Of a stretch of 64,000 nt of DNA, positions 4,797-56,997 are shown in pieces. Source of the DNA: an uncultured Bacteroidota bacterium (GTDB lineage Bacteria > Bacteroidota > Bacteroidia > Bacteroidales > UBA12481); assembly GCA_903851365.1 (NCBI GenBank), contig CAINOB010000100.1:1-64000 (forward strand). The letters run 5' to 3'. The translations under genes and the position numbers were made by a program. Every line of letters begins with the position of its first letter. Position 1 is the stretch's first letter. The notes beneath the pieces were generated by a model that saw nothing but the letters and a program-made list of their open reading frames with translations, was not told the DNA's origin and ran no database searches.

Positions 4797-4895
4797 CCAG
4801 CCCGTTTTTTGGATGTAACAGAGGTTACGCAACTGTTTGAATTGGGATCCAATGTACCTTTAGCCAAAATTGTACGAAACAATTAACTTTTCGGA

Positions 4896-5603
4896 ATGAA
4901 GGATCAACCATTTAACTATTTAGAAAACCATTTCATTCATAGAAGCAACTGGCTGAGAGCAGCTGTTCTGGGTGCCAATGATGGAATTCTGTCAACCTCC
5001 AGCCTGGCGATTGGAATTGCAGCAGCGAGTAATGCCAGGGAACCTATTGTACTGGCGGCTATAGCTGGATTGGTTGCTGGTGCATTATCAATGGCAGCAG
5101 GTGAATACGTTTCGGTTAGTTCTCAAACAGATGTGGAAGAGGCTGATATTGAACGAGAAAGACAAGAGCTCAATGATATGCCCGAAATTGAACTTCAGCG
5201 ATTAGCGGAAATTTATGAGAAAAGAGGTCTTAAGAAGGAAACTGCATTAACCGTGGCAAAAGAATTAACTGAAATAGATGCATTAGCAGCACACATCAGA
5301 GATGAACTGGGCCTGAATGAAACAAGCAAGGCAAAACCAATACAAGCAGCTTTTGCTTCAGGATTATCATTTTCTGTTGGAGGAATACTTCCGCTGATGG
5401 TAGCACTCTTTCTGCCGGTGAAAAGCATTGAATACTATCTATATGGTTTTGCTATTTTCTTTCTGACTATTTTAGGTGCATTGGCTGCTAAAACAGGTGG
5501 TTCAAGTGTAGGTAAAGCAATTATCAGAATCACCTTTTGGGGAACTGTAGCTATGGGATTAACTGCATTTGTCGGATATTTGTTTAATGTAAACGTTGGA
5601 TAA
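4896..5603 (+). CDS. VIT1/CCC1-family divalent metal transporter
   Basis: This 235-residue inner-membrane protein of the VIT family moves Fe2+ or Mn2+ out of the cytosol. TM1 carries LRAAVLGANDGILST, and TM2 carries the AGALSMAAGEYVSVSSQ motif that lines the metal path. A charged helical cytosolic domain (about 75-150, rich in Glu) follows, then three further membrane spans to the C-terminus. Length and motif order are normal. The GH127 gene begins 19 bp past its stop, so the two may share a transcript although their roles look unrelated. The actual metal cannot be told from sequence. Confidence 0.92.
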   Translation: MKDQPFNYLENHFIHRSNWLRAAVLGANDGILSTSSLAIGIAAASNAREPIVLAAIAGLVAGALSMAAGEYVSVSSQTDVEEADIERERQELNDMPEIELQRLAEIYEKRGLKKETALTVAKELTEIDALAAHIRDELGLNETSKAKPIQAAFASGLSFSVGGILPLMVALFLPVKSIEYYLYGFAIFFLTILGALAAKTGGSSVGKAIIRITFWGTVAMGLTAFVGYLFNVNVG

Positions 5604-5622
5604 AACTATAACGCATTATAAA

Positions 5623-8600
5623 ATGAAAACCTGTAAGCTGATTGTTGGACTCCTGTTAATTTTCTGTGCTTTGGATACAGCCAGGCTTTGTGCACAAACC
5701 GGTGATCAAATCTTGGACGGAATTGGAGAAACAGGATTAATTGCCCGTTATACCTTTAAAGGGGATGCAAAGGATTGGTCGCGTAACAATCTGCATGGCA
5801 GTATTATAGGCACAGGTTTCAAGTTTGTGGACGATTCCCTGTTTGGTAAAGTGGTCTCTTTATCAGGCGATAGTGAAACGTTTATCTCCATACCGGTTGA
5901 AGCAGTGAAAGGAGAGGAATCATTGAGTATTACCGGATGGATATATCTGCGTTCGGCAAAAGGCGGACCCGTATTTTTCGATTTTGGAAAAAACGGCCAT
6001 TCGCACTTCTTTGCGGCTCCGGCCGGGATTATGGACAATGAAGGTTTTCAGGCACAAATCCTCACAAGCTCTGGAAAGTATATCGCCAATTCACCTGCAG
6101 TGACTATGAATAAATGGAATCATTTAGCGATAGTTATTAATGTTCCGTCCAAAACTTTGACCACTTACCTGAATGGCGCACTGGTGAGTGAGGTTAAGGA
6201 GGTAGGGGTATTGTTGGAACAACTTTTCGATAATAAATCAGGAGATAATAATAAACTTTATATCGGCAAATCGCTGGATTCTGATCACACCTTTTTCAAT
6301 GCCAAATTGTACGATTTCCGTATCTACAGAATCCCTTTGACCGAAAGCCAAATTGCCAGAATCCAAAGTAATGCTTTGAGAAAGGAAGGAACAGTTGCCA
6401 GAAGAAGAGCTGAACCCGACCGGAGTCTTCCAGCTTTTCCCACAACTACACCCCAGTTGTATAATGCATTTCTGACCAGTGTTCCAGACATCCGGGTGGA
6501 GACAGTAGTGGGTGAGTTACCAAGGTTGCCACGCCATGTTAAGGGCGTTTACACCAATAATATCGAACGACCAGATGTATTAGTGGTCTGGCCGGCACCC
6601 CTGAATAACAGCCAGGTACTTACCGCTGGCACCTATACCATAATAGGAAAGGTTGCGGGAACCGATCTCCATCCCAATGCGATTGTCACCGTTAAAGAAG
6701 GTAAAGCACCTGCCACACCGGGTCGAAGGCTGGAAGTTTTTAAGCTTGATCAGGTTTCATTAAACACGGATATTCATAATGATAAAACGAAGTTTATAGA
6801 GAACCGTGATAAATTTATTACGGGCCTTGCCCTAACCAATCCTGACAATTTCCTTTATATGTTTCGTAATGCCTTTGGGCAGAAACAGCCTGCGGGGGCA
6901 GTAGCACTGGGGGGTTGGGATAGTCAGCAAACGAAGTTGCGCGGTCACGCAACCGGTCATTATCTCAGCGCCATAGCTCAGGCCTATGCCAGTACCGGAT
7001 ATGACCCGCAGCTTCAGGCAAATTTTGCGGATAAGATGAAGTACATGGTGAATACCCTGTATGAATTATCACAACTGTCCGGAAAACCACAAACAGCAGG
7101 GGGACCGCAAGTTTCGGATCCAAAACTGGTGCCACCCGGTCCGGGTAAATCAGGATTCAATTCAGATTTGAGTGTCGAAGGTATACGTACAGATTACTGG
7201 AATTGGGGCAAGGGATTTATCAGTGCTTATCCGCCCGACCAGTTTATTATGTTAGAAAATGGGGCTACCTATGGAGGGGATAATGCAAAGGTCTGGGCAC
7301 CCTACTATACTTTGCACAAAATCCTGGCCGGATTGATGGATATTTATGAAATCAGTGGCAATGAAAAGGCGCTGGAAATAGTAAAAGGCATGGGCGACTG
7401 GGTATTTGCCCGATTGAGTCCGTTGCCAACTGAAACACTCATCAGTATGTGGAACCGGTATATTGCCGGGGAGTTCGGGGGAATGAACGAAGCGATGGCA
7501 AGGTTGTATCGAATTACAAAAGAGCCTCGATATCTGAAAGTTGCACAATTATTTGATAACATTAAAGTATTCTATGGCGATGTTCAGCATTCGCATGGGC
7601 TTGCTAAAAATGTAGATATGTTCCGTGGGTTGCATGCCAACCAGCATATCCCTCAGATTATCGGGGCACTTGAACTTTATCGAGATTCGGATACTCCTGA
7701 ATATTACCATATCGCCGATAATTTCTGGGATATGGCCACGAATGATTATATGTACAGTATCGGCGGAGTTGCCGGAGCACGTAACCCGAATAATGCAGAG
7801 TGTTTCACGAGCCAGCCGGCAACACTTTATGAAAACGGTTTTGCGGCTGGTGGCCAGAATGAAACCTGTGCTACCTATAATATGCTCAAATTAACCAGAG
7901 ATCTTTTTCTCTTTAATCAGAGTGCAGAGTTAATGGATTATTACGAGCGCGGGCTTTATAATCACATTCTGGCTTCTGTTGCAGAGAACTCGCCTGCCAA
8001 TACCTACCACGTGTCCTTGCGCCCAGGATCAGTAAAACAGTTTGGTAACGAGGATATGGATGGTTTTTCCTGTTGTAATGGCACAGCTTTGGAGAGCAGC
8101 ACAAAACTTCAAAACTCGATCTATTTTAAAAGTGCCGACAACCAGGCTTTGTACGTGAACCTTTATGTTCCTTCAACATTAAAATGGACCGATAGGAATA
8201 TCATGGTAACCCAATCCACGGCTTATCCAAAAGAAGACCATACCCGGTTAACTATAAAAGGGAATGGCATTTTCGATCTGAATGTACGGGTGCCGCATTG
8301 GGCAACCAAGGGCTTTTTTGTGATGATCAATGGCAAAGAAGAAAAAGTTAAGGCTGTGCCAGGAAGCTATCTGACAATAAACCGCAAATGGAAAGACGGG
8401 GATATGGTGGAATTACGTATGCCGTTTAAGTTTTATTTAGAGCCCATTATGGATCAGCAAAATATTGCCAGTTTGTTTTATGGACCTGTTTTACTGGCAG
8501 CCCAGGAACCGGAGCCCCGGACCGACTGGCGTAAGGTTACCTTAAATGCAGATGATATAAGTAAATCCATATCAGGCGATCCAAGTCAGTTGCAATTTAC

Positions 8601-8679
8601 TATTGACGGTATTACTTATAAACCTTTCTATGAAACCTATGGGCGTTATTCGGTTTATCTGGATGTAAATCTAAAATAG
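5623..8679 (+). CDS. Secreted GH127 beta-L-arabinofuranosidase-like enzyme with LamG and Ig-like domains
   Basis: Start ATG 5623 gives a proper signal peptide (MKTCKLIVGLLLIFCAL...CAQ); a TTG at 5596 overlaps the previous gene and is less likely. The order is: LamG/concanavalin-like sugar-binding domain (about 28-245), bacterial Ig-like domain (about 290-355), then the (alpha/alpha)6 GH127 domain to the end, with total length about 1018. GH127 enzymes release L-arabinofuranose using a zinc-bound Cys nucleophile. Here Glu747, Cys749 (NETCATYN) and the Cys817-Cys818 pair (FSCCNGT) match that site. The enzyme is presumably periplasmic or surface-exposed. The added LamG domain is larger than in minimal GH127 enzymes. 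Confidence 0.92.
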   Translation: MKTCKLIVGLLLIFCALDTARLCAQTGDQILDGIGETGLIARYTFKGDAKDWSRNNLHGSIIGTGFKFVDDSLFGKVVSLSGDSETFISIPVEAVKGEESLSITGWIYLRSAKGGPVFFDFGKNGHSHFFAAPAGIMDNEGFQAQILTSSGKYIANSPAVTMNKWNHLAIVINVPSKTLTTYLNGALVSEVKEVGVLLEQLFDNKSGDNNKLYIGKSLDSDHTFFNAKLYDFRIYRIPLTESQIARIQSNALRKEGTVARRRAEPDRSLPAFPTTTPQLYNAFLTSVPDIRVETVVGELPRLPRHVKGVYTNNIERPDVLVVWPAPLNNSQVLTAGTYTIIGKVAGTDLHPNAIVTVKEGKAPATPGRRLEVFKLDQVSLNTDIHNDKTKFIENRDKFITGLALTNPDNFLYMFRNAFGQKQPAGAVALGGWDSQQTKLRGHATGHYLSAIAQAYASTGYDPQLQANFADKMKYMVNTLYELSQLSGKPQTAGGPQVSDPKLVPPGPGKSGFNSDLSVEGIRTDYWNWGKGFISAYPPDQFIMLENGATYGGDNAKVWAPYYTLHKILAGLMDIYEISGNEKALEIVKGMGDWVFARLSPLPTETLISMWNRYIAGEFGGMNEAMARLYRITKEPRYLKVAQLFDNIKVFYGDVQHSHGLAKNVDMFRGLHANQHIPQIIGALELYRDSDTPEYYHIADNFWDMATNDYMYSIGGVAGARNPNNAECFTSQPATLYENGFAAGGQNETCATYNMLKLTRDLFLFNQSAELMDYYERGLYNHILASVAENSPANTYHVSLRPGSVKQFGNEDMDGFSCCNGTALESSTKLQNSIYFKSADNQALYVNLYVPSTLKWTDRNIMVTQSTAYPKEDHTRLTIKGNGIFDLNVRVPHWATKGFFVMINGKEEKVKAVPGSYLTINRKWKDGDMVELRMPFKFYLEPIMDQQNIASLFYGPVLLAAQEPEPRTDWRKVTLNADDISKSISGDPSQLQFTIDGITYKPFYETYGRYSVYLDVNLK

Positions 8680-8714
8680 AGTTTAGAAGTATAGGAGGAT
8701 AGGAGTTTAAGGGG

Positions 8715-9842
8715 TTAGGATAGTTTGTTTTTCAGGATTTTATAACCGAGACCGATCGAATAATAGTGTCCACTAAAAGGAGCGGCTTTGAGGGCCAGGT
8801 TGAAGCGCCCTATATTGAACTGCATGGCCAGACCGTAAATAAAGTGGCTGACCTTTTTGTCAACATCAACGAGTGGTGAAAGGGAATAAGAATCGGAGCC
8901 CTGTGCCATCGAAGTGTAAAAATCCCGGGCTATGGAGATATCAATTCCCCCGTCGGTGGCAACCTTATAGGCCGAACTGTTCAGGGAGGAGAACAGCGAA
9001 AGGTCCAGAAAGCCGAACTTTTTTGTCAGGACTGCTTCAAAACCCAGGTTCGAGGAACTGTAGCTGATCCCCTTAAGGTTATTGACCACCTGGATCTTGT
9101 CAGAACTCGGTGCTTCGATATTTCCGATCAGGTCAGGCCCCACCTCTGCCCCTATTGCTATCATACTGTAATCGACTCCCACGGTGAGGAAAAATTTCCG
9201 GTCGTGGAGCAGCGGTACCCAATGCAACACATCATGCCTGACCGCAAAAGTTGCCATGATATCCTTCGATAGGGAAAGGCTTTGGGCAATCCCTTTGGTA
9301 GCCAGTTTCAGGGCGCCAGGCAGAACGCCGACCGACACCTCCGTACCGTAGCCAACTCCTAAACTTAAAACCGGCATGATCGAGGGGGCGAATCCCAGGC
9401 CGGTGCCGATCCCGGGGAAAAGGGGCAGACTAAATCCGAGGTTATCTCCGCTAAAAGGATTGACCAGCGCAAGGCCTGTTGCTTCGTCGAGGAACCGGAA
9501 GACCAGGTTTCCCGGCTGTTCGGTGCCAAAAAGACTGGGTGCCGGACCGGTCAGAATAAAATTGTCTGAAAAATCAGGGTTAACAAAATCTGTACTTAAA
9601 CCCAGGCCCACCCTGAGGGATAAGGAGAGCTCCCACCTCTTCAGAATATCGCCCGTGGTGTTCAGATTGTTCAGGAATGCAAACCCTTGATGACGGGTCA
9701 GATCGCAAAGGTAGGATTCGGTATAGGACGAGAAATTTGCGGGGATGGTATTCAACTGTGCGCCGACGTTGGTCTGGGCTTTCGCCTGAAATGCTGCAAG
9801 GGACAGAACTATAAACAGGGAAAAAAATATCTTGGATTTCAT
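8715..9842 (-). CDS. Outer-membrane beta-barrel-like protein (DUF6588-like), function unknown
   Basis: This is a 375-residue protein with a signal peptide (cleavage after QAKA). The mature chain is made of alternating hydrophobic and polar beta strands with many Gly residues, for example LSLSLRVGLGLST, LSLGVGYGTEVSVGVL and FNLALKAAPFSGHYYSIGLGY. It ends in a strand close to the C-terminus, as in outer-membrane barrels. It resembles the DUF6588 group of Bacteroidota. No catalytic motif is present. A role as porin or barrel scaffold is inference. It lies 35 bp upstream of the next minus-strand pseudogene in coordinates and may share its transcript. Confidence 0.65.
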   Translation of the reverse strand: MKSKIFFSLFIVLSLAAFQAKAQTNVGAQLNTIPANFSSYTESYLCDLTRHQGFAFLNNLNTTGDILKRWELSLSLRVGLGLSTDFVNPDFSDNFILTGPAPSLFGTEQPGNLVFRFLDEATGLALVNPFSGDNLGFSLPLFPGIGTGLGFAPSIMPVLSLGVGYGTEVSVGVLPGALKLATKGIAQSLSLSKDIMATFAVRHDVLHWVPLLHDRKFFLTVGVDYSMIAIGAEVGPDLIGNIEAPSSDKIQVVNNLKGISYSSSNLGFEAVLTKKFGFLDLSLFSSLNSSAYKVATDGGIDISIARDFYTSMAQGSDSYSLSPLVDVDKKVSHFIYGLAMQFNIGRFNLALKAAPFSGHYYSIGLGYKILKNKLS

Positions 9843-42345: not shown

Positions 42346-43203
42346 TCACCTGGTGGGAATCCTTTTAATGAGGCTCAGCAATCCCAGGAAAACAATGAAG
42401 CATAGATTGACCGCCATGCTCAGCAGGATGAGGAAATAAAAGGCTGAAAGATATCGGCTGGCCTCCAGGAAAGCGGTTTTAGTAAAGTCGCCGATCCATA
42501 GGGTGCCAAGGTTAAAGAGCAAAAGAATGATCAGAAAAAATACAAATCCTCCGGCTGCACCTTTAAAGTCGGCACGGCTCAGGGTAATGGAACTGCCAAT
42601 TGAATAGGATACGAAAACCATGAGGAATATTTTCCAGAGTGCCGAATGCTGACCGTTAAATACGATATCGAAATAACCGGTCATGCCGGACCAGGTATTA
42701 ACCGCAACCAATTTTAATGAGGACAATTTTAATAGGGCGGCTGTACCATAATCACCGGAATAAATTGAGGCTACATTTATTCTGAAAAGCAGCACGTTCA
42801 TCAGGAAGAGCAAAGCAGTACCAAAGAGTATCGGACCTATACCGATCCAGAAATTCCCGATTCGCTGATAAATGCTGCGTTTGTTATACGTGTGATTGAC
42901 ATATCCAAGTGTCCCGTTTACGGATTTAGGGGTAAACAGTTTGATCTCCTTAATTTTATGTGCGAATATCAGGGCAAAGAAAGCATGCCCGAGCTCATGC
43001 ACTGCTGTGCCGAGCCATCCGAACAAAAACAGGTAGCCGTTCCGTCCGAATACCGAATACCCCAGCATTGCATTCCGGGTGGAAATCAGGTTCATCAGCA
43101 GAGTAAGAATAACAAGCGGCCCAAGCAGAATGAGGGTCTGGGTTAGGGTAGCAGATAATACGCTGAGAAGGTAACCTGGTAAATCTGAAAATATCTTATC
43201 CAT
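42346..43203 (-). CDS. M50-like membrane metalloprotease-type protein
   Basis: This is a 285-residue polytopic membrane protein. One membrane segment carries HELGH at 69-73, as in site-2 proteases, and the chain has about six spans (LILLGPLVILTLLM, LFLFGWLGTAVHE, ILFGTALLFLMNVLLF, LMVFVSYSIGSSI, GFVFFLIILLLFNLG, FLILLSMAVNLCFIVF). The second zinc motif (NPDG/LDG) of true S2P enzymes is not evident, so it may not cut peptides. It is a single gene between ORF6N and the type IX cargo gene. The partner or substrate is unknown. Confidence 0.8.
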   Translation of the reverse strand: MDKIFSDLPGYLLSVLSATLTQTLILLGPLVILTLLMNLISTRNAMLGYSVFGRNGYLFLFGWLGTAVHELGHAFFALIFAHKIKEIKLFTPKSVNGTLGYVNHTYNKRSIYQRIGNFWIGIGPILFGTALLFLMNVLLFRINVASIYSGDYGTAALLKLSSLKLVAVNTWSGMTGYFDIVFNGQHSALWKIFLMVFVSYSIGSSITLSRADFKGAAGGFVFFLIILLLFNLGTLWIGDFTKTAFLEASRYLSAFYFLILLSMAVNLCFIVFLGLLSLIKRIPTR

Positions 43204-45561: not shown

Positions 45562-47130
45562 ATGAGGCGGACACTCATACTATTACTAATAGCCTTTTTA
45601 TTTGGTGGCTGTTTGTCGCTGGAGAAATCGACCAGCAGTCTGACGGCACTTCACAGTCCGGAGAAATTAAAATCCGATGCTGATTTCATCTACGGAAAAC
45701 TTCAGAAGCTGCATCCCTGTCTGGACAACTATACCAGTAAGAAGGAGCTGGATTTTAAGTTCGACAGCCTGAAATTATCGATCACTTCCCCCATGACGAG
45801 CAATGAATTTTTTTTCAGGTTAAGTCCTGTGATTGCCGCAATAAGGCAGGGACATACGAGAGTTTCACCGATAAATAAGAAACTTTCCGTAAAGCATGAG
45901 ATCAATCCTGGCATGCCTGGGACCCTTCAATTTTTTCAGTATGATTTTGAAATGTTCGACAATCGGTTTTACATTACAAAAAACATCGGAGGGCATAAAG
46001 ATATCAAGCCACCGTCGGAGCTGGTATCCGTGAATAACCATACTCCTCAGGAAATACTAAGAAAATACAGAAATACGCTAACTTCCGACGGATTCAATCA
46101 GACGTTTATCGAGAGGCGACTCAGCAAAGATTTACCATCCTATTTATATTATGAGGATGGTTTGGCTGACAGCGTTGTGTGTGAATTAAGATACCGCGAT
46201 ACTCTCTTGAGGGTATGCTTGCGGCGCAATACAAAATATAGGGCTCCAAAAGTAGCTATATCCCGGGCTCAGAGAGTTGAGGAAAGGTTTGCCCGGAAAA
46301 AGGAAAATTCGAAGAGAGAGGAGCAGGGTTATAACGAAATTACGCGCACCTACAGCAAGAACCTAAGCTTTCCAGTACCCGACAGCAGCATAGCTATACT
46401 GAAGATCAATGATTTTTCAGACGGAAATCACCAGAAGTTTTATCGTGAAACCTTCAGGCTGCTCGATACGCTTAAAACAAAAACCCTGATTCTTGATATC
46501 AGGGATAATCCCGGTGGTGAATTGCGCGATGCTGCAGATTTATTCTCCTATTTGACTGATACCAGTTTTGTTTTCATCGATAAATCGGAAGTGGCCTCCA
46601 AAGCAAGTCTGTTTTATGCCAATTTCTTTAAAGGCAATCCATTGATAATCAATATTATTATTTCATTAGCTTATCCGATGGAAATGGTTATCCGAGGAGT
46701 GCAGGTTCTGATGGTTACCAAAGACGGTGATGGCAGATACCTGTTTCCATTTCCGGAGTCGACAAAAAGCAATTGTAAAAACATCCATTTTAAAGGGAAG
46801 GAATATGTTCTGATCAATGGGGGAACTTTTTCCGCTGCATGCATTCTTGCATCAAATTTAAAGGGGTCAAAAAGGGCATTTTTTGTCGGGGAAGAAACCG
46901 GTGGCGATTACAATGGCACCGTGGCAGGCAGGATGGCCACCTTTACATTGCCAGAATCCCGGCTGAAAGTCACTTTCGGGCTGGCTCATGTGCAGCCGTG
47001 TTACAAGACCGGCATGACAGGACATGGAATCTTTCCTGATGTAAGGATCAGGCCAACACTGGAAGACAGACGACAGGGGGTCGATCCGGAAATGGAATAC
47101 GTACTGAAGAAGGTGACGGGTGACAAGTGA
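45562..47130 (+). CDS. S41-family serine protease lipoprotein
   Basis: This 522-residue lipoprotein (lipobox FGGC, Cys17) belongs to the C-terminal-processing peptidase family. An N-terminal helical cap (about 40-120) with PVIAAIRQGHTRVSP precedes the catalytic domain: LILDIRDNPGGELRDAADLF, then NGGTFSAAC with nucleophile candidate Ser424, then FFVGEETGGDYNG. The general-base Lys of CtpA is not in the usual place, and Glu residues in GEETGG recall the tricorn-like subgroup. It probably degrades periplasmic proteins. The last residues (VTGDK) come from a 7-nt repeat tract. Confidence 0.87.
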   Translation: MRRTLILLLIAFLFGGCLSLEKSTSSLTALHSPEKLKSDADFIYGKLQKLHPCLDNYTSKKELDFKFDSLKLSITSPMTSNEFFFRLSPVIAAIRQGHTRVSPINKKLSVKHEINPGMPGTLQFFQYDFEMFDNRFYITKNIGGHKDIKPPSELVSVNNHTPQEILRKYRNTLTSDGFNQTFIERRLSKDLPSYLYYEDGLADSVVCELRYRDTLLRVCLRRNTKYRAPKVAISRAQRVEERFARKKENSKREEQGYNEITRTYSKNLSFPVPDSSIAILKINDFSDGNHQKFYRETFRLLDTLKTKTLILDIRDNPGGELRDAADLFSYLTDTSFVFIDKSEVASKASLFYANFFKGNPLIINIIISLAYPMEMVIRGVQVLMVTKDGDGRYLFPFPESTKSNCKNIHFKGKEYVLINGGTFSAACILASNLKGSKRAFFVGEETGGDYNGTVAGRMATFTLPESRLKVTFGLAHVQPCYKTGMTGHGIFPDVRIRPTLEDRRQGVDPEMEYVLKKVTGDK

Positions 47131-47229: not shown

Positions 47230-49932
47230 ATGAAAAAAGCTATCCTATCCATCGTTTATGTTGCTTTTGCGTTATTTCTTGGGTACCTCGCATCAGGCGG
47301 GGTAAACGGGTTCCTCGGAATAAAATACAAATCGAAATCGACACCGGAAACTGATACGGTGACATCAGCTAAGTCTGACAACCAGCCTGTCAGGTCGCTC
47401 AAGCTGCGTCTGGCAGATTTCGGGGGTGTTGGAATCATTCCGGATACGGCAAACTGGGGCGATAATTATCAGCATAACGTTCACCGTTTCGAGGATCTGA
47501 TAACAGAAAAAGCACCGTTTCTGGAGCCGAAAGCCTATGAGCGCATCGGAACTGAGCTTGACACATTTGTCAGCCGGATGCAAACCTTTAACATCAACGG
47601 AATTGTTTTTCCTGCCTTTCTGGAGTTGGTAAGTTTCGGCGATTGGGCCGAAGGAAAGAATATTTATCCCGAGAACGATAGCTATCGCCAACGACATCTT
47701 GCCCTTCAAAAGGGGTTCGGAAAGTGGATGGAGAAAATTGCTCAGAAAGGGATGGATGTTTATCTGTATACTGACATGGTCGCACTGACCCCTCCCCTCG
47801 AAAAATATCTGCTAAAAAAATACGGGAAGATAGATCCGGAAACAGATGAATTCTGGGTAGTTTACAAAATGGCCTGCGAGGAGCTTTTTAACCGGCTTCC
47901 TGAGGTGAGCGGCATCATGCTTCGGATTGGAGAAGCCGGTTCCATATATAATAAGCCCGGATGGAATTATTACAGTCAGCTATTGGTGCGAACGGATAAG
48001 GCCGTTGATAAAATGTTGTCTGCTTTTCTGGAGGTAGCAGAGAAGCACCATAAAAAAATCATTTTCAGGACCTGGTCCGTTGGGGTGGGACAGATAGGAG
48101 ATATGCACACCAATCCCGAGACTTACCAACGGATTTTTGGTCATATTCATTCGGAAAACCTGATTATTTCGACCAAATATTCTCGTGGCGATTTCTATTC
48201 CTGGCTTCCGTTCAACGAAACTCTGAAACAGGGTGATCAGCGCCGGATTGCCGAGTTTCAGCTGCGACGCGAATTTGAGGGTCTGAATGCCTTTCCAAAT
48301 TTTATGGGTCCGCTGTATCAAAAGGCCCTGCTTCAATTTGCCACAAAAAATGAGAATTTCGATGGGGTTTGGCTTTGGTCGCAGGAGGGAGGACCGCTAC
48401 GCGCAGGTCCGATGTCGATCTACCCTTTCCACGGATTCAATACCGTTACCGATCTCAACGTGTATGCCGTTGGCCGGCTGATGAACAATCCGGCAGCTGA
48501 CCTGAAAAAAATAACTGCCGATTGGGCGGGGTTAAATTTCGGTGACGACAGCCTGATGCAAAGAACCTTGACTCATGTGTTCTTGAATTCGCACAATACT
48601 ACCTGCAAGGGTTTATATATCAGTGAATTTGCAAAATATGATGTCAGGGCGCTCGGTTTGGAACCGCCACCGATGCTCTGGATATTTGAATGGGACATTG
48701 TTGGTGGATCACCCTCGGTTTTCAGCAACATTTACTACATCGCAAAAGATCATATCACCGCAGCTATTGCCGAAGGATATGAAGCGGCGGATGAGGCACA
48801 GCAGATGATTGCCGGCCTGAGTGCAGTGAGCGATCGTGTGAGCCGGAATAATGACAAGTATAGCGCCTTGCAGGCTTCACTGGCTTATGAGCAGAATTTA
48901 TTTACCACCCTCGCGCATTTCAGAAAGTACATGCTCACCTATTATGAGTGGCTTGCCAATGGCGGGAGTGATTTAAAGAAAACATGGAAAAATTCGATGC
49001 AAGATTTTGCTTCAGCGGAAAAAGTGCATACTAAGACTTATGGTGCGAATCTTGATTTTCCAGCCTACAATTTCCGTGAAGCAAAAGTGGCGACTAAAAT
49101 TGCTCAACGCACCGATATTACTACCTGGCTGGCGCGGTTGCTGGCCCTGATTATGGTTATCGCTTTTGCCCTGGGCTCACCGCTCCTTCAGAAACGGATG
49201 CCAGCGTTTAAAGGAAAGCGGGCCACAGCGATGTTATGGTACGGCAGCATCAAACCCTCGGGCAGCGGCGGCACCAGCTGCGAACGTGCCGATACCGGGC
49301 CATTGGGATTGTTTTCGTTTGTCTATATAATATTTGCACTATCCGTTTTCACTTCCTTTGCGGCACCGGTTTTTGTGGTCTCACTTTTTATCCTGACCCT
49401 TATATATATCGGGTTAAACATGAAATTAGCCTCCTCACCGGGCAACTGCGATCAGGTGGCAAAAATCGCCTCCTTTCTTTCACCCGCCCTGCTTTTTCTG
49501 GGTATATTGATGTTGTTTACCGCATGGAGGGGACCAACGGCATTCTGGTATTTCTTCTGGACCTCAGCCTCATTCCGGATTGTTTTCCTGATGGTATTTG
49601 TGTTGTTTGTACTCCGGGCCTATTATACCTGGGCGGTTACCCTTACTACAACCTTGCATCACAGTGCGTTAAAATCCGCAGGGATTATGCTCTTCGTGCA
49701 GGGAATCCTGTTCGCCGCAGGTGGTGGCATTGCTTCAATCTTCGGATTTGAGAAAACGCTTACGGTACTCAACGACGAGTTGATGCTGCTGCCAGGCGGA
49801 TTATCAAGAATACTGGGGATTACCACACACCTGGAGATTCCAACGAACATACCGACGGTGGTGATGTACCTGGGATTGGTATTGGTGCTTTTGGGAATTG
49901 GTTGCTTAGCAATAAGGCAGAGGTCATCATAA
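47230..49932 (+). CDS. Glucuronidase-like barrel fused to a multi-span membrane domain
   Basis: This 900-residue protein has an N-terminal signal-anchor (ILSIVYVAFALFLGYLASGG). A TIM-barrel-like region (about 55-470) resembles alpha-glucuronidases of the GH67/GH115 type: MQTFNINGIVFPAFLEL, IMLRIGEAGSIY, FDGVWLWSQEGGPLR and NVYAVGRLMNNPAADLKKI. A helical tail (about 480-625) follows, then about seven membrane spans from residue 631 (TWLARLLALIMVIAFALG, FSFVYIIFALSVFTSFAAPV, LSPALLFLGILMLFTAW, FRIVFLMVFVLFVLRAYYTW, IMLFVQGILFAAGGGIASI, VVMYLGLVLVLLGIG). Soluble relatives lack such a tail. Catalytic residues cannot be fixed from sequence alone. Confidence 0.72.
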   Translation: MKKAILSIVYVAFALFLGYLASGGVNGFLGIKYKSKSTPETDTVTSAKSDNQPVRSLKLRLADFGGVGIIPDTANWGDNYQHNVHRFEDLITEKAPFLEPKAYERIGTELDTFVSRMQTFNINGIVFPAFLELVSFGDWAEGKNIYPENDSYRQRHLALQKGFGKWMEKIAQKGMDVYLYTDMVALTPPLEKYLLKKYGKIDPETDEFWVVYKMACEELFNRLPEVSGIMLRIGEAGSIYNKPGWNYYSQLLVRTDKAVDKMLSAFLEVAEKHHKKIIFRTWSVGVGQIGDMHTNPETYQRIFGHIHSENLIISTKYSRGDFYSWLPFNETLKQGDQRRIAEFQLRREFEGLNAFPNFMGPLYQKALLQFATKNENFDGVWLWSQEGGPLRAGPMSIYPFHGFNTVTDLNVYAVGRLMNNPAADLKKITADWAGLNFGDDSLMQRTLTHVFLNSHNTTCKGLYISEFAKYDVRALGLEPPPMLWIFEWDIVGGSPSVFSNIYYIAKDHITAAIAEGYEAADEAQQMIAGLSAVSDRVSRNNDKYSALQASLAYEQNLFTTLAHFRKYMLTYYEWLANGGSDLKKTWKNSMQDFASAEKVHTKTYGANLDFPAYNFREAKVATKIAQRTDITTWLARLLALIMVIAFALGSPLLQKRMPAFKGKRATAMLWYGSIKPSGSGGTSCERADTGPLGLFSFVYIIFALSVFTSFAAPVFVVSLFILTLIYIGLNMKLASSPGNCDQVAKIASFLSPALLFLGILMLFTAWRGPTAFWYFFWTSASFRIVFLMVFVLFVLRAYYTWAVTLTTTLHHSALKSAGIMLFVQGILFAAGGGIASIFGFEKTLTVLNDELMLLPGGLSRILGITTHLEIPTNIPTVVMYLGLVLVLLGIGCLAIRQRSS

Positions 49933-50104: not shown

Positions 50105-51217
50105 ATGAAATCCAGAATAATAATAATCGTTTCGGTGATCCTCCTTGCGGGCACCTTATCAGCTTTTCAGAAAAAAGAATCCGTCCGTTTCTATAAGGGG
50201 AACATGCACACGCATTCTTACTGGAGCGATGGGAACACTTACCCGGAGGAGGTTGCCCGGTGGTACAGCGACCATGGATATCACTTCCTCGCGATTACCG
50301 ACCACAACCTTATTCAGAAGGGGATCAGGTATCGGGTGTCGGGGAAAGACTCCGTGCGTTTAAAGGAACTGACTGATTTAAGTAAAGAGTTTGATAAAAA
50401 AGACGAATTCCTCCTGGTTCAGTCGGAGGAAATTACTGACGCTGCAGAAAAACGACCGGTTCATCTGAATGGGTTCAATCTTAGTCAGGTAGTGAAACCG
50501 ACCGGTGGAGCCACTGTTTCTGAATGTTTAAATTCCAATGTAGTGGCGATTCGTCAGGCACTTGAGGTGGATGGCAACCCCGAATGGATATCCGTAAACC
50601 ATCCCAATTTCGGATGGGGACTCACTTCCAAAGACCTGGCGGAGTGCGGAGCGCGGTTCTTTGAGGTATTTAACGGACATCCTTCAGTCCATAATTATGG
50701 CGATTCCGTTCATCCGGGCACAGAGACCATGTGGGATCAGGCCAACAAATGGAGGGTCGACCACAATGAAAAATTATTGCTCGGAACCGCCACTGATGAT
50801 GCGCACCAATACGACAAATATGAAACGGGCAAGGCAAACCCCGGTCGCGGCTGGGTGATGGTCAGGGCCAGTGAACTGACCCCTGCGGCTCTTTATCAGG
50901 CAATGATGAACGCCGATTTTTATGCTTCTACCGGCGTGGAGCTCGAGGATTTCAAAGTTCATAAGATGACCATGACCATCAGGATAAAACCGATCAAGGG
51001 GGTTCATTATACCACGGAATTTATCGGGTGGATGCATGGTCAGGATCACGCAGAGGTTCTGGCAACCGTTAGCGGGACAAAAGCGGTTTACACGGGTACC
51101 GGTAAGGAACTTTTTGTGCGGGCCAGGATCATATCGGACAAGGATAAGGCAAATCCCTTTGTTTGGGGAGATAAGGAAATGGCCTGGGTGGAGCCTTTTA
51201 CGCCGGGTGAAAAGTGA
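50105..51217 (+). CDS. Secreted PHP-domain phosphoesterase
   Basis: This is a 370-residue exported protein with a signal peptide (IIIIVSVILLAGTLSA). The PHP metal motif is MHTHSYWSDG (His35, His37), followed by ITDHN with Asp66 and His67, SEEIT, and VNHPNFGW with a further His. GTATDDAHQY late in the chain completes the site. PHP enzymes hydrolyse phosphoesters using a trinuclear metal centre. Export suggests a periplasmic phospho-ester or nucleotide substrate. The last residues overlap the first repeat unit at 51207. Confidence 0.87.
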   Translation: MKSRIIIIVSVILLAGTLSAFQKKESVRFYKGNMHTHSYWSDGNTYPEEVARWYSDHGYHFLAITDHNLIQKGIRYRVSGKDSVRLKELTDLSKEFDKKDEFLLVQSEEITDAAEKRPVHLNGFNLSQVVKPTGGATVSECLNSNVVAIRQALEVDGNPEWISVNHPNFGWGLTSKDLAECGARFFEVFNGHPSVHNYGDSVHPGTETMWDQANKWRVDHNEKLLLGTATDDAHQYDKYETGKANPGRGWVMVRASELTPAALYQAMMNADFYASTGVELEDFKVHKMTMTIRIKPIKGVHYTTEFIGWMHGQDHAEVLATVSGTKAVYTGTGKELFVRARIISDKDKANPFVWGDKEMAWVEPFTPGEK

Positions 51218-52786: not shown

Positions 52787-54262
52787 ATGAAAAAGATTTA
52801 TATTTTCCTAAGCATCTGTTGTTTAGCTGCATGTACGGAGAATAAACCAACAAATTTGCCTGTCGCAGCCGCAAAAGACGGTGCCTCCTATTCCGCCGAA
52901 GGCAAAAAGGTGATTGTTTTTACCACCGCCGATAGCAGTAAATTAAGGCTCACGGCAACAGATACTTTATCTTTTTCACATTTTGATCAACCTCTGGAAA
53001 CCCAGCCGTGCATTTTTGTGGATCCGGCTCACCATTTTCAAACATTTCTTGGCATCGGCGGCGCTTTCACAGATGCATCGGCGGAGACCTTCGCCAAGCT
53101 ACCTGCCGATAAGCAGAAGGAGCTGATTGAAGCCTACTATGATAGCAACAGGGGTATCGGCTATACCTTTGGAAGAACACACATGAACAGCTGCGATTTC
53201 TCGAGCGACATGTACACCTATATCGCCGATGGTGATAAGGACCTTAAAACTTTCAGCATCGCACATGATGAAAAGTTTAAGATCCCCCTGATAAAGCGAG
53301 CCATTCAGGCTGCTGGAGGGAAAATCGATTTATTCGTCAGCTCATGGAGCCCCCCAGCCTGGATGAAAGACAATAACGACAGGTTACATGGAGGGAAATT
53401 GAAACCCGAGTATTTCCAGACCTGGGCAGATTACTATGTGAAGTATATACAGGCTTTGGAAAAAGATGGCGTTCCGGTTTGGGGTCTCACCGTCCAGAAT
53501 GAGCCCATGGCCAAGCAAATATGGGAGAGCTGCATGTACACTGCCGAGGAGGAAAGGGATTTTATCAAGAATTTCCTCGGACCAACCCTCCGGAAAAATA
53601 ACATGAGCGGTAAGAAACTCATCGCCTGGGACCATAACCGCGATCTTCTTTACCAACGGGCATCAACACTTCTGAGCGATCCTGAGGCTGCCAAATATAT
53701 CTGGGGAATTGGATTCCACTGGTATGAAGTATGGACCGGAAGCAGGCAATACGATAATGTCAGCCGAACGGCAGAAGCATTCCCGGGCACCAATCTTTTG
53801 CTTACCGAAGCGTGTAATTATCCGTTCAGCTGGCAGACTTTTGACCAGTGGAAATGGGGAGAAAATTACGGTGAAAATATGATCCATGATTTTAACACCG
53901 GCGCCGTGGCCTGGACCGATTGGAATATTCTGCTTGATGAAACCGGCGGCCCCAACCATGTTAAAGGTTTCTGTTTTGCTCCGGTGCATGCAAAAACCCA
54001 GGACGGAACGCTCCACTACATGAACTCCTATTATTATATCGGGCATTTCTCAAAATTCATCAAACCTGGGGCAAAAAGGGTGATCAGCTCCTCAAACAGG
54101 GCTCAGCTGCTTACCACCGCGTTTATTAATGCGGACGGCAAACTCGCTGTTGTGGTCATGAATCCGACCGCCGAGAAGTTCGCTTACCGGATGTATATTG
54201 GCACAAAAGCCGTTGAAACTTTAAGCCGCCCACATTCGATAAGCACCCTCGTAATTCAATGA
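52787..54262 (+). CDS. GH30 glucosidase-like lipoprotein
   Basis: This 491-residue lipoprotein (lipobox LAAC, Cys16) belongs to the GH30_1/GH30_3-type glycosidases. The barrel holds FLGIGGAFTDASAETF, FGRTHMNSCDFS and SWSPPAWMKDN, which shape the sugar site. Acid/base is Glu239 (TVQNEPM), and nucleophile is Glu341 (LLLTEACNY). A beta side-domain ends the chain. It would cleave beta-glucosyl or beta-xylosyl linkages at the cell surface or periplasm. It overlaps the GH106 gene by 4 bp (ATGA), so both are made together. Confidence 0.93.
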   Translation: MKKIYIFLSICCLAACTENKPTNLPVAAAKDGASYSAEGKKVIVFTTADSSKLRLTATDTLSFSHFDQPLETQPCIFVDPAHHFQTFLGIGGAFTDASAETFAKLPADKQKELIEAYYDSNRGIGYTFGRTHMNSCDFSSDMYTYIADGDKDLKTFSIAHDEKFKIPLIKRAIQAAGGKIDLFVSSWSPPAWMKDNNDRLHGGKLKPEYFQTWADYYVKYIQALEKDGVPVWGLTVQNEPMAKQIWESCMYTAEEERDFIKNFLGPTLRKNNMSGKKLIAWDHNRDLLYQRASTLLSDPEAAKYIWGIGFHWYEVWTGSRQYDNVSRTAEAFPGTNLLLTEACNYPFSWQTFDQWKWGENYGENMIHDFNTGAVAWTDWNILLDETGGPNHVKGFCFAPVHAKTQDGTLHYMNSYYYIGHFSKFIKPGAKRVISSSNRAQLLTTAFINADGKLAVVVMNPTAEKFAYRMYIGTKAVETLSRPHSISTLVIQ

Positions 54263-56997
54263 TTAAAAAAAGGTTTTGGGAGCTATTGCTCATTTTCTGG
54301 ATTTTCTGGGTAGTTGAGGGAACAGGGTTTGGACAGGAGAAAGCGGGTCCATGGGTATGGTGGTTCTGGCCGGGAGCGGCAGTGACTGAGACTGGGATCA
54401 GGAGCCAGATGATATCTTTTCAGCATTCCGGATTCAGCGGGGCGAGCATCAATTCCATTTATGCCGCAAACGATCTGCAGCATCCGCCAATACCTTTTAT
54501 GAGCGATAAATGGATCGGCATGATCCGGTTCACCCTTAGAATTGCCGACAGTTTGGGAATGCAGGTCGATCTTTCGCCTGTGAGCGGATGGCCATTCGGC
54601 GGACCATCGGTTAAGCCCGCCGATGCTGCTAAAAAGATTTTGGGTACCATTATCGGACCTATTCATGGAAATACCGATATCGAAAAGAAAATCCTTTCCC
54701 CGGATACAGCCCGTCTTTTATCCCTCACTGCTGTTCAATCTAATGATAAGGCAGGCAGTAATTTGGACCAGCCAACGGACCCCATCAGCCACATTGCCAT
54801 TCAACTTTTAGCTCAGACCGACAGTGCCGGGGTACTCCGGACTAAACTTCCGGGGGGAGAATGGAAACTTTATGCCCTCTACCTCAAACCTACCAGTCAA
54901 AAGGTGAAACGGGCAGGGCCAGGCGGCGAAGGCCTGGTTCTGGATCCATTCAGCAAGCCAGCCGTGGAGCATTATCTCGACGGATTGAGCGAGGCAATGA
55001 AGCCCTTTTCCGAGCTTAAATTGCACGCAGTATTTAATGATTCCTACGAGGTTTACGGCGCCGACGGTACCCCTGATATTCTCAATGAATTCCGTACACG
55101 ACGGGGATATGCGCTGGAGGATTTTTCCGATATTTTTCTCGGTCCGGCCGACAATCCGGCAAGGCTGAGGATACTTGCAGATTATCGTCAGACTTTTGCC
55201 GAATTACTGAATGAAAAGTTATTAGGGACCTGGAATGCTCACTCCCATAGCCTGGGTTTGAAAACCCGGGAGCAGGCACATGGTGCACCGGGCAATCTGC
55301 TTGATCTTTATGCCGCAGCAGATATTCCGGAGACAGAATCCTTTGGGTCGAGCGCTTTCAAAATACCGGGGGTGGTTACCGACCCCGATTATAGTCCGAC
55401 AACCTTTGGCCGTCCCGATCCGCTGGTGATGAAGTTTGCCACTTCAGCAGCGAACGTGAGCGGGAAAAACATCGTTTCCTCGGAATCTGCCACCTGGCTC
55501 GCCAACCATTTCAAGGTTTCGCTGGCGCAGGTAAAGCCCCAGATTGATGAACTTTTTGCTGCCGGGGTCAACCAGGTGATGCTGGCCAGCGCTTCCTATT
55601 CACCAGCTGATGTTCCCTGGCCAGGATGGGTTTTTTATGCATCCACAGATTTTGGTCCAAACACCTCTTTTTATAATTACCTGCCCGACTTCAGCAAATA
55701 TGTGAGCACCTGTCAGGAAATCCTCCGGGAATCAACCCCTGACAACGACCTCCTGATTTATTTCCCATTTTCCGAGGTCATCTCCAAGATCGGGAAGGAT
55801 ATGGGTAATCTGGTGACATTCGAAGTGCACTATCCTGGAAAATGGCTCTATGCTTTTGCTTATGGAAAGCTTGCCAGGGAACTCTTCGACAAGGGCATAT
55901 CATTCGATTTCATCTCCGATGATCAACTTAAGGCTCTGTCTCCACATTCGAAAAAACCCATTCTGATCCCTGATTGCCGGTTCATGCCCGTGGAAACCGC
56001 CCGCGCTATTAATAGACTTGCAGATTCAGGTGCAACAGTGATTTACCAAAATCAACAACCGGCGGATGTCCCAGGATTCTTCCGGGTTCAGGAGCGACTA
56101 AAGGAACTCACCACCATTAATAAAAGCATTTTAGCCACTGGAAAAAAGGTATCCATTGTTAATGCAGATATCCCCTTAGCCCTTCAAAAAGCAGGAGTAA
56201 AATCAGAACCATTCGGTACCCATGGACTCCGATATATCCGCAAGGTCAAGGGATCTGAAACTATTTATTTTGTCACGAACCTGGCCAGCGAGTTTCATGA
56301 AGCCTGGCTCAAACCAGCAACCAATGGCCGCAACGTCATTTTTTTCGATCCGCTCACCCATAAATCGAGTTCCATGCCCCGGGATACCAAAGGCGGGATA
56401 TTTCTGCAACTCGAACCGGGCCAATCCTGCTTCATCACGATCAATGATTCCAATTCGAAAGCCAATAAACAAAATAAGACATCGAATTTAGCTGTTTCAG
56501 GGACCAATGAAATCAGCATACCGGGTCCCTGGAATCTTTCATTTTCAGGTGGCGGACCCGTGGTGCCTTCACCGGTTATTGCAGCCACTTTAGGAAGCTG
56601 GACCCAGCTGGCCGATACACTATGCCGCTGGTATAGCGGAACCGGCACCTATGAAACTGATTTCACCCTTCCCATAAGAATCGTTACCGGGGCAACTTAC
56701 ACCATGAACCTGGGTGATGTCAGGGAGGCTGCCGAAGTCTGGATCAATGGTCACCCGCTGGGCCGTGCCTGGTGTGTACCTTTCCGGCTCAATATCGACC
56801 CTGCCTATCTGAATAAAGGAACCAACCACCTGAAAATTGCAGTCACCAACCATGCCGTCAACCGGATTATCTGGCAAGACAAGAACAGAGTGCCATGGAA
56901 GAATTATTTCTTTGTCGACATTCTTTACAAAGACTTCAATGCAGCCAAATGGCTTCCGGTGGAATCAGGTCTGTTAGGGCCCGTCACAATAAGGTGA
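54259..56997 (+). CDS. GH106-type alpha-L-rhamnosidase
   Basis: This 912-residue exported enzyme would release terminal rhamnose from pectic or other plant and algal polysaccharides. The signal peptide is weakly defined (LLLIFWIFWVVEGTGFGQ). The family opening WVWWFWPGAAVTETGI and the blocks VPWPGWVFYASTDFGPNTSF and LLIYFPFSEVI are GH106 pattern. A C-terminal beta-sandwich (about 770-905, TMNLGDVREAAEVWINGHPL) resembles the sugar-binding domain of GH2-type enzymes. It starts inside the stop of GH30. Catalytic Glu residues were not assigned. Confidence 0.85.
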   Translation: MIKKRFWELLLIFWIFWVVEGTGFGQEKAGPWVWWFWPGAAVTETGIRSQMISFQHSGFSGASINSIYAANDLQHPPIPFMSDKWIGMIRFTLRIADSLGMQVDLSPVSGWPFGGPSVKPADAAKKILGTIIGPIHGNTDIEKKILSPDTARLLSLTAVQSNDKAGSNLDQPTDPISHIAIQLLAQTDSAGVLRTKLPGGEWKLYALYLKPTSQKVKRAGPGGEGLVLDPFSKPAVEHYLDGLSEAMKPFSELKLHAVFNDSYEVYGADGTPDILNEFRTRRGYALEDFSDIFLGPADNPARLRILADYRQTFAELLNEKLLGTWNAHSHSLGLKTREQAHGAPGNLLDLYAAADIPETESFGSSAFKIPGVVTDPDYSPTTFGRPDPLVMKFATSAANVSGKNIVSSESATWLANHFKVSLAQVKPQIDELFAAGVNQVMLASASYSPADVPWPGWVFYASTDFGPNTSFYNYLPDFSKYVSTCQEILRESTPDNDLLIYFPFSEVISKIGKDMGNLVTFEVHYPGKWLYAFAYGKLARELFDKGISFDFISDDQLKALSPHSKKPILIPDCRFMPVETARAINRLADSGATVIYQNQQPADVPGFFRVQERLKELTTINKSILATGKKVSIVNADIPLALQKAGVKSEPFGTHGLRYIRKVKGSETIYFVTNLASEFHEAWLKPATNGRNVIFFDPLTHKSSSMPRDTKGGIFLQLEPGQSCFITINDSNSKANKQNKTSNLAVSGTNEISIPGPWNLSFSGGGPVVPSPVIAATLGSWTQLADTLCRWYSGTGTYETDFTLPIRIVTGATYTMNLGDVREAAEVWINGHPLGRAWCVPFRLNIDPAYLNKGTNHLKIAVTNHAVNRIIWQDKNRVPWKNYFFVDILYKDFNAAKWLPVESGLLGPVTIR

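Follow-up and report, generated by a model that had tools for sequence, protein, structure and literature searches.

A GH67-like barrel fused to a conserved seven-span membrane module in Bacteroidota and an Asgard archaeon, a candidate membrane-embedded exo-uronidase

Most glycosidases are either soluble or tethered through one anchor. The window analysed here (64,000 nucleotides, positions 1 to 64,000 of contig CAINOB010000100.1 from an uncultured member of the Bacteroidota) contains a gene that a preliminary description, made from the letters alone, had read as a GH67/GH115-type barrel with an N-terminal anchor and about seven further membrane spans, held on the inner membrane with the barrel facing the periplasm and possibly coupling sugar cleavage to transport or signalling. 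This raises the question of whether such a fusion is real, and what an enzyme of this layout could do at the membrane.

The gene is a 900-amino-acid open reading frame with an ATG start that fills exactly the first interval of Table 1, and its product runs from an N-terminal membrane anchor through a GH67-like barrel and a helical linker to a C-terminal seven-span module. The soluble part is about 600 residues long and, by hydropathy, the C-terminal spans of the window protein start at residue 630. Six C-terminal hydropathy peaks are seen in the window protein, as in L001 and L004, and seven in five of the seven full-length relatives described below; the N-terminal span is present in all seven. 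The AlphaFold2 model (pLDDT 80.6, pTM 0.80, with pLDDT below 50 in loops 66-84, 386-399 and 479-489) has seven long C-terminal helices (628-649, 689-707, 713-734, 740-767, 780-808, 813-838 and 874-899), and hydropathy and model helices together bear out the anchor and the set of about seven spans. Because the first cytoplasmic loop (649-691) carries seven K/R residues and the C-terminus is basic, we place the barrel in the periplasm, in support of the orientation first proposed. In this topology, predicted from hydropathy and charge, the N-terminus would lie inside and, in archaea, the barrel would lie outside the cell.

Table 1. Features of the fused gene and of its neighbours, in coordinates of the window
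Feature	Position	Strand	Basis or remark
Fused gene, GH67-like barrel and seven-span module, 900 aa	47230..49932	+	ORF and homologues
N-terminal membrane anchor, residues 4-22	47239..47295	+	hydropathy 2.15 over 19 residues; model helix 2-29
GH67-like catalytic barrel (by homology), residues about 56-490	47395..48699	+	VIA to 1mqp; Foldseek 1l8n
E235, candidate general acid (RIGEAG)	47932..47934	+	invariant in A1; in both alignments offset by one column from the GH67 acid
R280, aligned with the conserved Arg of GH67 (WRAF)	48067..48069	+	alignments
K316, aligned with AguA K359 (counted along the alignment)	48175..48177	+	alignments
D321, aligned with AguA D364 (counted along the alignment)	48190..48192	+	invariant in A2
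E342, aligned with AguA E386 (residue changed to Gln in 1mqr, per its title)	48253..48255	+	alignments
Motif GLEPPPMLWIFEWD, residues 476-489	48655..48696	+	identical in all 8 fused rows of A1; different in soluble relatives
Helical linker, residues about 491-626	48700..49107	+	model helices 495-532, 541-577, 580-604, 616-626
Seven-span membrane module, residues about 628-900	49111..49929	+	hydropathy, model helices
Outer-face motif RGPxxFWxxxWxxxxF, residues 767-782	49528..49575	+	7 invariant residues in A1
Outer loop of spans 6-7, with LPGGLSRILGITTHLxIP	49741..49857	+	16/37 residues of 840-876 invariant
S41 peptidase	45562..47130	+	PF03572 77.1 bits; not seen beside the relatives read
PHP-phosphoesterase-like protein (by eye), directly after the fused gene	50105..51217	+	no Pfam match at 0.001
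GH30 glycosidase	52787..54262	+	PF02055 253.2 bits
GH106-type rhamnosidase-like protein	54259..56997	+	PF17132 191.7 bits

A pattern scan of genome contigs returned nine loci encoding relatives, with E 0 for eight of them. Seven are full length (L001 and L003-L008, which are 83, 65, 45, 45, 42, 40 and 41% identical to the window protein, respectively), and L002 and L009 are the two ends of one gene in the same assembly. The set covers MAGs of Bacteroidales or Bacteroidetes, one of Flavobacteriales and one of Candidatus Baldrarchaeum, an Asgard archaeon (L008). We rejected a chance or chimeric reading frame, since the whole layout recurs at 40-83% identity in Bacteroidota MAGs and in the Baldrarchaeum MAG, and is therefore a conserved architecture. 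This recurrence suggests that the fusion represents a genuine class of membrane-bound enzymes. In the open-access literature subset that was searched, we found no description of a GH67-like barrel joined to a seven-span module.

Among 395 genomes of the phylum, 67 match at E 0.001. The only full-length match is that of the window's own genome, and the other 66 match nowhere outside profile positions 205-546, for the most part in ORFs some 700 amino acids long. Within the order, 7 of 393 genomes match at E 1e-20, three with a fused gene (G000, G007 and G466), one with a decayed copy (G018) and three with soluble relatives only. The membrane module of the G466 copy (L067, 8877-11591) contains an in-frame TAG flanked on both sides by conserved sequence, and a true stop, recoding or an assembly error are alike possible. 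A search of 120 genomes related to the Flavobacteriales copy found that copy only, no relative was among 18 pattern matches from viral contigs, and four plasmid records gave partial barrel matches only.

In the Asgard phylum, the full profile matches 5 of 227 genomes, namely G454, which holds L008; G868, in which the fused gene lies in two pieces; G819, with a membrane module and no barrel; and the distant G915 and G975, with an anchor, a GH67-like part and C-terminal spans. The module profile alone matches 3 of 225 (G454, G819 and G868), and a search of 59 genomes related to G454 found G454 and G819 only. We do not favor contamination as the origin of the Baldrarchaeum copy given the five matching genomes, although the L008 gene has 39.7% G+C compared with 44.6% in the preceding 9.4 kb of its contig. 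In the tree, L008 stands in an open fork with L005 and other Bacteroidota rows (81/80), with the other Asgard rows on very long branches, an arrangement compatible with transfer between Asgard archaea and Bacteroidota in either direction. The N-terminal part is longer in L008 and other Asgard rows than in the window protein, which would fit loss in Bacteroidota. Near one broken end of the two-piece G868 gene (L084 6702-7061, L085 2-1249) is a resolvase-type recombinase ORF (PF00239). The distant Asgard proteins (L082 1782-4889, L083 4600-7629) have the same order of anchor, GH67-like barrel and C-terminal spans, with changed catalytic positions and a membrane part in which no similarity to the window module was detected, either in a comparison using just the two G915 and G975 rows or with the module profile.

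The barrel itself is kin to known GH67 enzymes. The family profile matches AguA (1mqp) at E 1.3e-8 and a GH67 alignment built for comparison with 97.9% probability, and the model, in line with the GH67/GH115-type reading of the preliminary description, matches GH67 best in structure, with 1l8n as the top Foldseek match (E 1.9e-12) and 1mqp as the best VIA match (Z 20.5, rmsd 2.9, 398 residues aligned, model residues 56-591). GH138 (BP0997), a barrel likened by fold alone, comes next (VIA Z 17.8 to 18.2, the latter to 6hzg), and GH115, also scoring below GH67, is a weak Foldseek match (4zmh, E 2.8e-5) and its model is not listed by Pfam. According to an excerpt of one study, GH115 has the GH67 fold without the GH67 active-site residues, and arginines often bind glucuronate in glucuronate-binding proteins (PMC3879575). 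Since the active-site residues of GH115 differ and those of GH67 are kept here, GH67 is the better comparison, and of the GH67/GH115 reading it is the GH67 half that stands, with GH115 less apt. We do not file the window protein as a GH67 member because it stays below the Pfam cut-off (GH67C 24.8 bits, cut-off 27; GH67M, cut-off 23.5 bits, not listed) and the GH67 N-terminal domain is absent, only about 55 residues preceding the barrel and model residue 56 aligning at chain residue 141. L008 (GH67C 28.9) and L082 (GH67M 29.6) pass one Pfam model each. Compared with AguA and GlcA67A, the protein thus shares the barrel fold, the catalytic Asp and Glu, the Arg and Lys equivalents and part of GH67C, but differs in its fused-only motifs, its anchor and its seven-span module.

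In GH67 enzymes, an Arg and a Lys hold the uronate. The acidic residues looked for in the barrel are present: two sequence alignments pair D321 and E342 with AguA D364 and E386. Together with R280 and K316, these two residues are invariant in all eight fused rows of alignment A1, a set of mutually related rows from MAGs to which all our invariance counts refer. E235 is conserved as well but lies one column off the GH67 acid, E285 in AguA numbering. The barrel is GH67-like by fold and by residues, and homology suggests that it is catalytic. Its closest counterparts outside the fused family are soluble GH67-like proteins of about 590 amino acids in Bacteroidota (alignment A5: L013, L017, L019, L060, L064 and L074; profile E 1.1e-41). 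They keep equivalents of E235, R280, K316, D321 and E342 in the five rows shown, but have no membrane module and carry other sequence at the place of EPPPMLWIFEWD. In the two that were scanned, no Pfam family exceeded its cut-off and there was no match in NCBIfam. The L074 copy (4803-8759, minus strand) is part of a 1319-amino-acid protein with a second large C-terminal region.

Invariant positions make up 113 of 345 residues in the barrel (residues 56-400) compared with 28 of 280 in the membrane module. In the module they are strongly one-sided under the predicted topology, with 26 on the outer face, one in mid-membrane and one on the cytoplasmic side. The concentration of these 26 within the predicted outer zone, which comprises 104 residues, has a hypergeometric probability of 1.3e-10, which is a guide only because the zones are predicted topology and the eight rows are related; without the 838-876 loop, 10 of 12 invariant module residues still lie in the outer zone (4.8e-5). 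This outer-face bias gives little support to signalling through the membrane, and we do not favor the coupling to signalling that had been raised for this protein. The GLEPPPMLWIFEWD motif and the outer loop of spans 6-7 are candidates for a shared membrane-proximal site.

As to what the module is, none of six related modules (window, L008, L066, L004, L005 and L006) gave a Pfam match above cut-off, and Foldseek found no PDB fold with E below 0.001 (best E 0.29). The best VIA match, a photosystem I subunit (Z 7.6 over 82 residues), falls in a range that the tool calls common. A fold match could have been missed because the model of the module alone is only moderate (pLDDT 75.2, pTM 0.69). A PDB sequence search with the module gave a single match at E 0.071, which we take as chance. 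Yip1 gained no support as its identity, a profile comparison with Yip1 rows finding nothing for the window set and nothing of note for the G915 and G975 set (probability 1.2%); the G915 protein (L082) reaches 18.6 bits to Yip1, with a cut-off of 28.6. The original statement was that no named family with this order of parts was known; for the membrane part, these Pfam, PDB and profile comparisons likewise gave no named family.

We suggest, giving it an even chance, that the protein is an inner-membrane-embedded exo-uronidase whose seven-span module presents a membrane-proximal, uronic-acid-capped substrate to the barrel. The anchor and the module would hold the barrel at the periplasmic face of the membrane (in archaea, at its outside), R280 and K316 would hold the uronate carboxylate, and D321 and E342 could act as bases, with E235 as the likely acid, in an inverting removal of the terminal uronic acid. 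The barrel might dock at a membrane-proximal site made up of the module's outer face (RGPxxFWxxxW plus the LPGGLSxIxGITTHLxIP loop) and of EPPPMLWIFEWD, the barrel motif seen only in fused proteins, and this site might also present the substrate, which would be capped with uronic acid and either linked to a lipid or bound to the membrane. We count in favor of an exo-uronidase the same domain order in Bacteroidota and Baldrarchaeum, the GH30 and GH106 genes in the window, and two PfkB kinases near the L007 copy that resemble KDG kinases and score below the NCBIfam cut-offs. Counted against it are the GH67 match below the Pfam cut-off, the offset of E235 and the retention of the module without a barrel in two genomes.

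Alternatively, the module could serve as the inner-membrane component of an exporter that also comprises TolC and the two HlyD-type adaptors, with the barrel removing a uronic-acid cap from the cargo before it leaves. We regard this as possible but on the whole unlikely. It draws on one Bacteroidales clade (L004, L006 and L007) with the gene order HlyD1, fused gene, second adaptor, TolC-type gene, on a GTG start that overlaps the HlyD1 stop in L006, L007, G1145 and G1152, but not in L004, and on barrel-less forms that, in G1145 and G1152, still occupy the place between the two adaptor genes. The HlyD/TolC operon of this clade does point to a transport setting, in which the suggested coupling to transport might apply, but no adaptor gene is found in those flanking stretches that can be seen around the window copy, L001, L003, L005, L008 and G466 (the upstream view ending at the contig end in L001 and L005, with little downstream in L008). 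Furthermore, in G533 HlyD1 and the second adaptor are separated by about 160 bases that contain no ORF, G018 has a decayed copy in the slot, the operon is without an ATPase or pump, and the cytoplasmic side of the module is almost devoid of conserved residues. HlyD1 was rejected as a private partner, since 40 of the 149 genomes searched in the order hold relatives at E 1e-40. An ABC-exporter-like ORF stands before HlyD1 in 13 of the 14 HlyD1 flanks read (12 adjoining, one with a small ORF between; called by eye, with two confirmed by Pfam), and G533 has none. A one-carbon set adjoins the HlyD operon in two Bacteroidales genomes (L007 1294-8581, L068 7050-15332), comprising in L007, by Pfam, a formate-THF ligase, a pterin-binding methyltransferase-like protein and an MTHFR-type protein and, by eye, a corrinoid protein and its activator; the L068 set was called by eye.

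The barrel-less genes of G1145 and G1152 consist, in frame, of anchor, linker and seven-span part. They were found among 119 relatives of the L007 genome, nine of which match at E 1e-20, some being genomes already known. Their comparison (pN 0.333 and pS 0.715 over 450 codons, 49% identity) indicates purifying selection, but not its exact ratio, since dS is saturated. As the module persists without the barrel in these two genomes, it must do something alone there. Both have lost the loop motif of spans 6-7 along with the barrel and keep RGPxxFW, and the barrel-less Asgard gene in G819 is the reverse, retaining most of the loop but with QGF in place of RGP, so that we propose no rule linking loss of the loop motif to loss of the barrel. 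The G018 remnant has no room for a barrel, and the barrel-less state may therefore be a step towards gene loss. Among 198 relatives of G1152, the module profile gave nine matches at 1e-6 and no further barrel-less gene, the matches being known copies (including G018, G466 and G007) and a 66-amino-acid fragment at a contig start in G1142. With the HlyD/TolC setting and these barrel-less forms, a role in export is open for the one clade.

We likewise think it unlikely that the module is a mere anchor and the enzyme a conventional alpha-glucuronidase of the periplasm that acts on imported oligosaccharides of xylan or pectin. The window copy has GH30 and GH106 genes in its vicinity, as, by eye, does L002, and L003 has a GH130-type gene and a hybrid two-component regulator nearby, as might be expected of such an enzyme, but the neighbours differ from relative to relative among those read. 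Moreover, the outer-face invariants and the outer loop of spans 6-7 represent more constraint than an anchor needs, and the N-terminal span would already suffice. Near L002 there is, by eye, also a protein like the PHP-like one of the window, and the window itself encodes at 42346-43203 (minus strand) a membrane protein that carries an HELGH motif, looks M50-like by eye and is without a Pfam match at 0.001.

A wider possibility, which we consider quite unlikely, is that the module is a new membrane-protein family that joins TolC and two HlyD-type adaptors in a tripartite envelope assembly lacking any known pump, the GH67-like barrel being a removable periplasmic tool and the fusion having been exchanged between Asgard archaea and Bacteroidota. 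That the barrel is a glycan sensor, binding without cleaving while the module signals, is highly improbable. In its favor are the seven spans, the propeller-type regulators near L003 (hybrid two-component) and G466 (SpoIIE-ended) and the altered catalytic positions of the distant Asgard relatives (G975 is without an E342 equivalent); against it are catalytic residues invariant in every fused row, the lack of a conserved cytoplasmic face and a domain search that found no effector domain in the window protein.

An architectural analogue is the inner-membrane peptidase ClbP, described in an excerpt of one study as an N-terminal periplasmic catalytic domain with a C-terminal three-helix membrane domain (PMC9889268); the likeness is by that description alone and only one of layout, ClbP being a peptidase and its membrane domain having three helices. 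For the exo-uronidase that we suggest, a membrane-held enzyme with a conserved surface on its own side of the membrane fits work on membrane-proximal or lipid-linked glycans capped with uronic acid. The natural barrel-less forms and the conservation of a single face offer a direct way to test what the module does. More generally, a GH67-like enzyme joined to a conserved polytopic module in two domains of life suggests glycan work at the membrane surface, or the hand-over of its product to envelope machinery.
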